Below are positions 24,087 through 24,214 of a stretch of DNA of 24,600 nt, piece after piece (the first letter of the stretch is position 1; every line of letters starts with the position of its first letter). Source of the DNA: Gallionella sp. (GTDB lineage Bacteria; Pseudomonadota; Gammaproteobacteria; Burkholderiales; Gallionellaceae). The position numbers and the translations under genes were made by a program. The notes beneath the pieces are model-generated. The model was given only the letters and a program-made list of their open reading frames with translations, searched no databases and was not told where the DNA came from. Where the stretch lies: positions 1 through 24,600 of the forward strand of contig JAUYGW010000109.1 in NCBI GenBank assembly GCA_030690245.1, given 5' to 3'.

Positions 24087-24114
24087 GGAACTATTTTAGG
24101 AATTGCTTATCTGA
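24087..24114 (+). promoter_or_regulatory. Predicted sigmaE/AlgU-type promoter of the candidate small RNA
   Basis: GGAACTA (24087-24093) and TCTGA (24110-24114) are 16 nt apart. This matches the sigmaE/AlgU pattern GAACTT-N16/17-TCTGA with one mismatch. The predicted start is near 24120, leaving about 95 nt to the terminator. Confidence 0.55.
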
Positions 24115-24119
24115 TGCTG

Positions 24120-24214
24120 TGAGTGGCGCGAGTTACTCCCCGTTTCTCCTCCCTGAGCGGGTCGTCTTAACCTTGTTAAGGCTCTTTGCCCCCGGTTTTC
24201 CGGGGGCATTTTTT
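24120..24214 (+). ncRNA. Candidate trans-acting small RNA between hemB and engB
   Basis: This plus-strand segment has no ORF but carries ordered structure. GAGT/ACTC (24121-24138) may pair. The hairpin CCCG/CGGG (24139-24142 with 24158-24161) displays a CU-rich loop, TTTCTCCTCCCTGAG, able to pair with Shine-Dalgarno sequences. CTTAAC-CTT-GTTAAG (24166-24180) follows, then a strong intrinsic terminator. A sigmaE-like promoter sits at the right distance upstream. Both flanking genes are on the minus strand, so the terminator serves neither. By memory, Spot 42 and Pseudomonas ErsA also lie beside engB. Expression and homology are not shown; this is an inference. Confidence 0.6.
24188..24214 (+). 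terminator. Strong intrinsic terminator (plus strand)
   Basis: GCCCCCGG (24188-24195), loop TTTT, CCGGGGGC (24200-24207), then ATTTTTT. On the minus strand the stem is followed by AAAG, not a T run, so it is oriented for plus-strand transcription. It abuts the engB stop codon. Confidence 0.92.

Follow-up and report, generated by a model that had tools for sequence, protein, structure and literature searches.

Near the end of the window, by which we mean the whole 24,600-nt stretch of DNA analysed, a short plus-strand element lies between two minus-strand genes, hemB and engB. The hemB gene matched the NF006762 profile with 508.6 bits (cut-off 297). For engB, of which only the C-terminal part is present because the window ends inside the gene, TIGR03598 gave an E-value of 1.2e-24 and 87 bits, below the cut-off of 124. 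The features of the locus are as follows, with the basis of each assignment.

23051..24058, minus strand: hemB, porphobilinogen synthase, the divergent neighbour (profile match)
24087..24093, plus strand: −35 element GGAACTA, sigmaE (ECF) type (sequence reading; position conserved in members from the order)
24110..24114, plus strand: −10 element TCTGA, separated by 16 nt from the 7-nt −35 element (sequence reading)
24121..24216, plus strand: predicted small RNA (sRNA) of about 96 nt (5' end placed from the −10 element; RF02837 match)
24121..24138, plus strand: hairpin SL1 (fold and covariation)
24139..24161, plus strand: hairpin SL2, presenting the loop UUUCUCCUCCCUGA (fold, covariation and loop conservation)
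24143..24157, plus strand: CU-rich anti-Shine-Dalgarno stretch TTTCTCCTCCCTGAG (sequence reading; conserved)
24164..24182, plus strand: hairpin SL3 (fold and covariation)
24187..24214, plus strand: SL4, the intrinsic terminator, a hairpin to 24208 and then a T run to 24214 (fold, terminator scan and covariation)
24213..24599, minus strand: C-terminal part of engB/yihA, the convergent neighbour, cut by the window end (profile match)

The sequence-only reading of this DNA had proposed a sigmaE-dependent sRNA with a GAACTA-N16-TCTGA promoter, flanked by two minus-strand genes and reaching from 24087 to 24214. Both promoter elements are present in the sequence, these limits proved correct within a few bases, and the profile matches confirmed hemB and engB as minus-strand neighbours. 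The stem-loops, CU-rich loop and plus-strand terminator that it described appeared in the fold as four hairpins followed by a T run. The fold of positions 24115-24220 reached −45.9 kcal/mol, compared with −30.2 (sd 3.0) for shuffled sequences (z −5.2), and 0 of 200 shuffles were as low. Terminator-like sites numbered one in 1.1 kb against 1.0 from shuffles, so the terminator in the window is by itself not improbable. Elsewhere in the window (21367-22064, plus strand), a pirin gene appears split over two frames, one ORF holding the Pirin domain and the following one most of the C-terminal cupin, through either a sequencing error or decay.

A cmscan search against Rfam gave a single match over cut-off in the whole window, to RF02837 (anti-hemB) at 24137-24216, with 65.6 bits (cut-off 49.5) over the full model (positions 1-81). 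The matched element lies upstream of and divergent from hemB, the neighbourhood used as a test for this family, and model R2, described below, matched 24116-24215 with an E-value of 2.6e-11. The element is a member of the existing family RF02837, not of a new family. The sequence-only reading had looked instead to Spot 42 and ErsA: in the Rfam scan that it suggested, both of these families stayed below cut-off and another one, RF02837, passed it. ErsA (RF01719, cut-off 50) was not among the 21 Rfam matches listed up to E 10 in the window, nor was sX13 (RF02232, cut-off 50), and kinship of the window RNA with Spot 42 by sequence was rejected at 12.4 bits with RF00021 against a cut-off of 80. 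The proposal of a small RNA gene as such was upheld by the match over cut-off and by covarying helices.

The Burkholderia cenocepacia homologue, ncS04, is presented in the available text of PMC5688073 as a mapped RNA of 105 nt whose 3' end was determined by RACE and dRNA-seq, visible on Northern blots and cited as Hfq-bound; the anti-hemB family is also listed for B. pseudomallei in the accessible part of PMC3521395. The window RNA shares with anti-hemB/ncS04 the same hairpins, the loop and the hemB side, but it carries CGUUUCUCC where most anti-hemB relatives have CGCUUCUCC. In the searchable literature, which covered few subscription journals, nothing was found on the regulation or targets of anti-hemB/ncS04/RF02837, and the promoter type, class-wide spread and engB slot of the family were not found described there; as far as these searches reached, these three features are new.

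Among 100 genomes of the window's order, the window's own included, RF02837 matched over cut-off in 72 and at E 1e-3 in 80. The alignment contained 73 members, namely the 72 best loci minus the near-duplicate L026 plus two second copies. Over its 72 distinct sequences, the four-helix structure had 93.8% of cells paired and 19 of 21 pairs changing on both sides. Such changes affected all counted pairs in SL1 (6/6) and SL3 (4/4) and half of those in SL2 (2/4), where 97.2% of cells were paired. The covariation score was 0.367, compared with 0.181 for shuffles (0/500 reached 0.367) and at most 0.101 when slid. The shuffle figure is not a probability, since the members share ancestry and their own aligned consensus supplied most of the structure. 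The best-conserved parts of the family are a hairpin loop and the terminator. The loop CTCCCTGAG is kept in 68 of 72 members and the promoter in 53 of 72. In 60 of 72 relatives a simple pattern finds the C-run CCCC[CT]T close to the 3' end; the terminator loop of the window copy lacks it.

A second, paralogous sRNA copy occurs in the family, typically with CACGTTTCTCCTCCCTGAGCGTG, for example at L076 3480-3569 (genome G024) and at L077 (G071). Read by eye, the upstream region of L077 has a sigmaE-type motif and that of L076 a sigma70-like TTGACA. Antisense matches to the paralogue were seen in eight genomes of the window's genus (L327, L329, L330, L334, L335, L348, L350 and L351). In the window's own genome (G000, 82.5% complete) a single sRNA copy was seen.

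The promoter pattern GAAC[CT]-N16-19-TCNNA was sought in the order within 75 nt upstream of each match. This strict motif occurs in 53 of 72 members, compared with a mean of 0.61 and a maximum of 3 in 200 rounds of dinucleotide shuffling, and is absent from the other 19; 52 of the 53 counted matches have 16 or 17 nt between GAACNN and the −10 element. Controls gave 0 of 71 at −150 to −75, 1 on the other strand and 3 in the 75 nt downstream, and, taken loosely, GAAC[CT] or GAAACTT occurs in 68 of 72. Under a somewhat relaxed pattern, the motif was found at 31 of 40 loci from the wider class (shuffles mean 0.8, max 4) and at 16 of 20 further class loci outside model training (mononucleotide shuffles mean 0.3, max 4). 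Methylovorus mays (L162) is among the members that fitted a combined pattern of promoter and loop. Within the 24.6-kb window, GGAACT-N17-TCTGA with at most one mismatch has a single match, with 0 mismatches. Shuffled windows contain 0.18 on average and 17 of 100 have at least one, which makes the motif by itself no more than mildly unusual; the weight of the promoter evidence lies in conservation at a fixed place in relatives.

The sigmaE promoter consensus is of the GGAACTT-N16-TCTNA type, and RpoE reads such sites and regulates itself. A promoter of this type is kept at the 5' end of the sRNA. The genome's own rpoE (TIGR02939, 320.4 bits, cut-off 236), followed by rseA (PF03872), is preceded by GGAACTA-N16-TCACA, whose −35 element and spacing are identical to those of the sRNA promoter; on this comparative evidence, the sRNA promoter resembles that of the sigma factor expected to read it. 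Together with the motif kept in order and class relatives, this substantiates the sigmaE-type promoter first read from the window, and RpoE is most likely the factor that starts transcription of the window sRNA. On the minus strand, TAAAAT at 24093-24098, a possible −10 element of hemB, overlaps the sigmaE −35 element, so the sRNA and hemB promoters may exclude each other.

It seems unlikely that the element is instead a housekeeping-type sRNA, transcribed via sigma70 or another ECF sigma factor, with GGAACT not being RpoE's site here. Such an RNA would agree with ncS04, whose level did not vary significantly under any of the seven conditions that Table 2 lists in the available text of PMC5688073 (where 20-min stresses, SDS included, largely did not induce the sRNAs tested). 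It would also agree with the other upstream sequences in L041, L065 and L067, with TTGACA before the paralogue L076, and with at least one further ECF-like sigma factor in the own genome (L129, named by eye). However, the motif stands in place in most of the order with almost constant spacing, its −35 element and spacing are those before the own rpoE, and no sigma70-like site was found by a simple scan of 23500-24600.

For the wider class, 274 genomes were drawn, 3 of them from the window's order. RF02837 at E 1e-3 matched 124 of the 274, with only 14 over cut-off, and 40 genomes from the upper part of this match list were read as class loci. We used model R1, built from the order alone, R2, built from the class loci, and R3, the same family without the terminator. 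R1 found 40 of 40 class loci (52 matches at E 0.01, best 1.4e-13), these loci having been pre-picked by the related Rfam model. At E 1e-3, R2 found the RNA in 136 of 274 class genomes, or 134 of 271 outside the order. Among 180 genomes of the phylum, the same search gave 18, of which 9 lay outside the class with weak E-values (6.2e-5 to 9e-4). Among the longer ORFs of two of these nine (L315 and L316), no polA or engB was recognised. We took the out-of-class matches as background, and R2 at E 1e-3 therefore carries some background.

The RNA is closely tied to engB. When the best 130 R2 matches listed were paired with the 150 engB places listed, 80 genomes had both, and in 65 of them the best R2 match lay within 1.5 kb of engB, 60 times convergently, with a median gap of 42 bp; in 13 of the other 15 the two were on different contigs. 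Outside R2 training, the RNA was beside engB in 46 of 58 genomes. At the 40 class loci, polA was upstream in 23, engB was downstream and convergent in 25, and a hemB match was found in none. The order set comprised 83 loci, the 72 best ones together with 11 copies that were second or weak, among which the arrangement hemB-sRNA-engB was found in 55, hemB upstream and divergent in 61, polA in 0, and engB upstream, without hemB found, in 10. The engB linkage thus outlives a change of the other neighbour, which is often polA in the class and mostly hemB in the order. Tandem arrays of two to five sRNA copies were also seen (L299 in G269, L122 in G360, L087, L090, L100 and L123), and those in G269, L100 and L123 adjoin engB.

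The frequent hemB neighbour and the family name raise the question of a cis-antisense RNA to the hemB leader, which would control haem synthesis via the hemB 5' UTR. With hemB upstream and divergent at 61 of 83 order loci, and only about 62 bp from the predicted sRNA start to the hemB start codon in the window, such a role is conceivable, but we hold it to be quite improbable. The ten order loci with engB upstream and no hemB found, and the lack of any hemB match at the 40 class loci, weaken the idea because the RNA persists without hemB alongside. Moreover, the best-conserved parts are the hairpin loop and the terminator, and the promoters stand back to back, so that overlap would require the hemB leader to exceed about 62 nt. 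A mere terminator for engB and hemB traffic with a chance promoter-like motif and no regulatory RNA would suit the T run that touches the engB stop codon, but it is hardly credible beside three more covarying hairpins, a near-invariant loop and a homologous transcript mapped as ncS04 (available text of PMC5688073).

The preferred reading, an RpoE-started sRNA of the anti-hemB family, invites comparison with RNAs in the same slot. In the accessible parts of PMC8575079 and PMC7264166, ErsA is AlgU/sigma22-dependent, lies between polA and engB, and represses oprD with Hfq. We assembled 29 loci of presumed Pseudomonadaceae, with the family recognised via the marker PrrF and the loci fetched by engB, and 18 of them, chosen after a motif look, were scanned with RF01719 (Pseudomon-1/ErsA). 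ErsA was found beside engB in 17 of the 18, with 15 over cut-off, and 14 of the 29 loci had polA on the upstream side inside the 1.5-kb flank. A GAAC-type motif precedes 16 of the 17 ErsA genes, and the remaining one (L134) has GAAACTT. ErsA resembles the window RNA in its engB-convergent slot and sigmaE-type promoter motif, and its terminator hairpin has a CUCCCC-like loop, but its 5' half is unlike anti-hemB, whose model scores ErsA at no more than 21.7 bits. R1 was significant at 1 of 29 loci (L152, E 9.6e-4), although of the 16 matches it gave at E 10 or below, 14 fell on ErsA. R2 recognised ErsA in 18 of the 29, with E-values from 7.8e-7 to 0.0096 that are rough, coming from small sequence sets; 17 of these loci coincide with RF01719, and L149, outside the RF01719 scan, is near-identical to L146. 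The next R2 match was L154 (E 0.011), also outside that scan. In whole genomes at E 1e-3, R2 missed ErsA-bearing G378 and G394 and found G384 and G512 of the same family.

Spot 42 occupies the polA-spf-yihA/engB slot of E. coli K-12 in the same orientation as the window RNA, so the shared engB-convergent position that the sequence-only reading had named for ErsA and Spot 42 was confirmed for both. R2 gave E. coli Spot 42 17.3 bits (E 0.017) versus 6.3 bits on a 49-kb control, which is suggestive only. RF00021 matched in 0 of the 274 class genomes drawn, with a positive E. coli control.

A further relative may be sX13, described in the portion of the literature available to us as lying downstream of polA and repressing, by means of three C-rich loops, mRNAs that carry G-rich sites, independently of Hfq. 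It resembles the window RNA in its C-rich hairpin loops and its polA side (L297, polA named by eye). It differs in lacking a clear sigmaE-type −10 element upstream, in not having engB as its neighbour in either genome whose match exceeded the cut-off, and in acting without Hfq. R2 picked up sX13 at both loci examined (E 6.6e-6 and 1.5e-5 in 18.7 kb of sequence, rough values), and in whole genomes at E 1e-3 it missed both genomes with an over-cut-off match, G111 and G263. R3 found 0 of 33 sources, of which 29 came from Pseudomonadaceae, two held sX13, one was the Spot 42 locus and one an E. coli control, whereas its positive controls were 10 of 11 order loci (L071 missed) and 10 of 10 non-training class loci. 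The R2 link to ErsA and sX13 therefore depends for the most part on the terminator hairpin and the C-rich loop in it, and the bodies of ErsA and sX13 are, as sequences compare, not recognisably the same as that of the anti-hemB family.

The clearest bridge between anti-hemB, ErsA and sX13 is the array at L299, four tandem copies beside engB with no Rfam match over cut-off. One copy gave 48.3 bits with sX13 (cut-off 50, E 1.3e-6) and 35.9 with anti-hemB, and the next but one gave 41.8 with anti-hemB, 37.1 with ErsA (E 3.2e-4) and 29.8 with sX13. The sX13 alignment there reaches beyond the terminator to cover three hairpins, though several of its positions are unpaired. The alphaproteobacterial ar14 model matches L302, L299 and L298 below cut-off, and ar7 matches weakly in L299, hinting at deeper kinship of these engB/polA-type RNAs or at convergence. 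Among betaproteobacterial RNAs, Bordetella S17 is CU-rich and represses by pairing near the ribosome binding site (accessible text of PMC11722255). S17 and the double-hairpin RNAs RF02278 resemble the window RNA in being betaproteobacterial with CU-rich anti-Shine-Dalgarno stretches but lie at other loci (S17 at BP3151-coq7), and S17L has a sigmaA-type promoter, according to the same portion of PMC11722255.

Taken together as one scenario, anti-hemB, ErsA and sX13 could be diverged copies of one ancestral polA-engB sRNA, sigmaE-driven, with C-rich loops blocking Shine-Dalgarno sequences; the window's order would have swapped polA for hemB, in Xanthomonadaceae neither the engB side nor the sigmaE motif would have survived, and Spot 42 would be a replacement or an extreme derivative. 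We put this forward tentatively, at slightly under an even chance. The common slot, the promoter type (for ErsA) and the L299 array speak for one origin, the alternative being convergence on a favoured slot, and the whole-genome misses of R2 led us to rate one origin slightly lower. No paper treating ErsA and sX13 together was found in the searched literature, which included few subscription journals.

As for how the window RNA would work, RpoE freed by envelope stress would start it at about position 24120 from the GGAACTA/TCTGA promoter, and the RNA of about 96 nt would end at the intrinsic terminator abutting engB. SL2 would then hold out UUUCUCCUCCCUGA, which would pair with trans-encoded mRNAs at their G-rich Shine-Dalgarno regions and keep ribosomes from binding, probably with assistance from Hfq. 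We infer this pairing mode and the role of Hfq from reports on ncS04, ErsA and sX13, S17 having been shown to work in this way. We consider it likely, as a single joint explanation, that the element is a further copy, in a Gallionellaceae-like genome, of the old anti-hemB family, that it is started by RpoE, and that its SL2 loop blocks ribosome sites, probably with Hfq. Counting against this are the Hfq independence of sX13, the level of ncS04, without significant change in seven conditions, the largely absent response of the sRNAs tested to 20-min stresses that covered SDS, the 19 of 72 members without the strict promoter, the missing terminator C-run in the window and the lack of a target theme.

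This last point comes from a search for CAGGGAGGAG-N3-10-ATG in 41 genomes (the window's own plus 40 relatives), which gave 37 matches compared with 4 for a reversed control. Among the 30 loci read, eight with CACG[TC]TCAGGGAGGAGAAACGTG were recognised by reading as antisense of the paralogous sRNA, and L336 as antisense of the main sRNA; all were dropped. Among the other loci, as judged by eye, are two starts that look like murE, two cytochrome-c-like ones and a phosphofructokinase-like one, besides several loci that have no long frame. A conserved envelope or outer-membrane theme was not found among the 30 loci read, the commonest match being the paralogue antisense.

An sRNA beside engB, often with polA opposite and with a sigmaE-type promoter, is found in about half of the sampled genomes of the class, which suggests that the similar RNAs beside engB in many bacteria represent one old stress regulator, maybe under several names. 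For the anti-hemB/ncS04 family, the analysis offers a testable regulator, RpoE, and a testable mode of action, and for the betaproteobacteria it offers a candidate counterpart of the enterobacterial sigmaE sRNAs. Results on ErsA and sX13 could guide work on many little-studied relatives.
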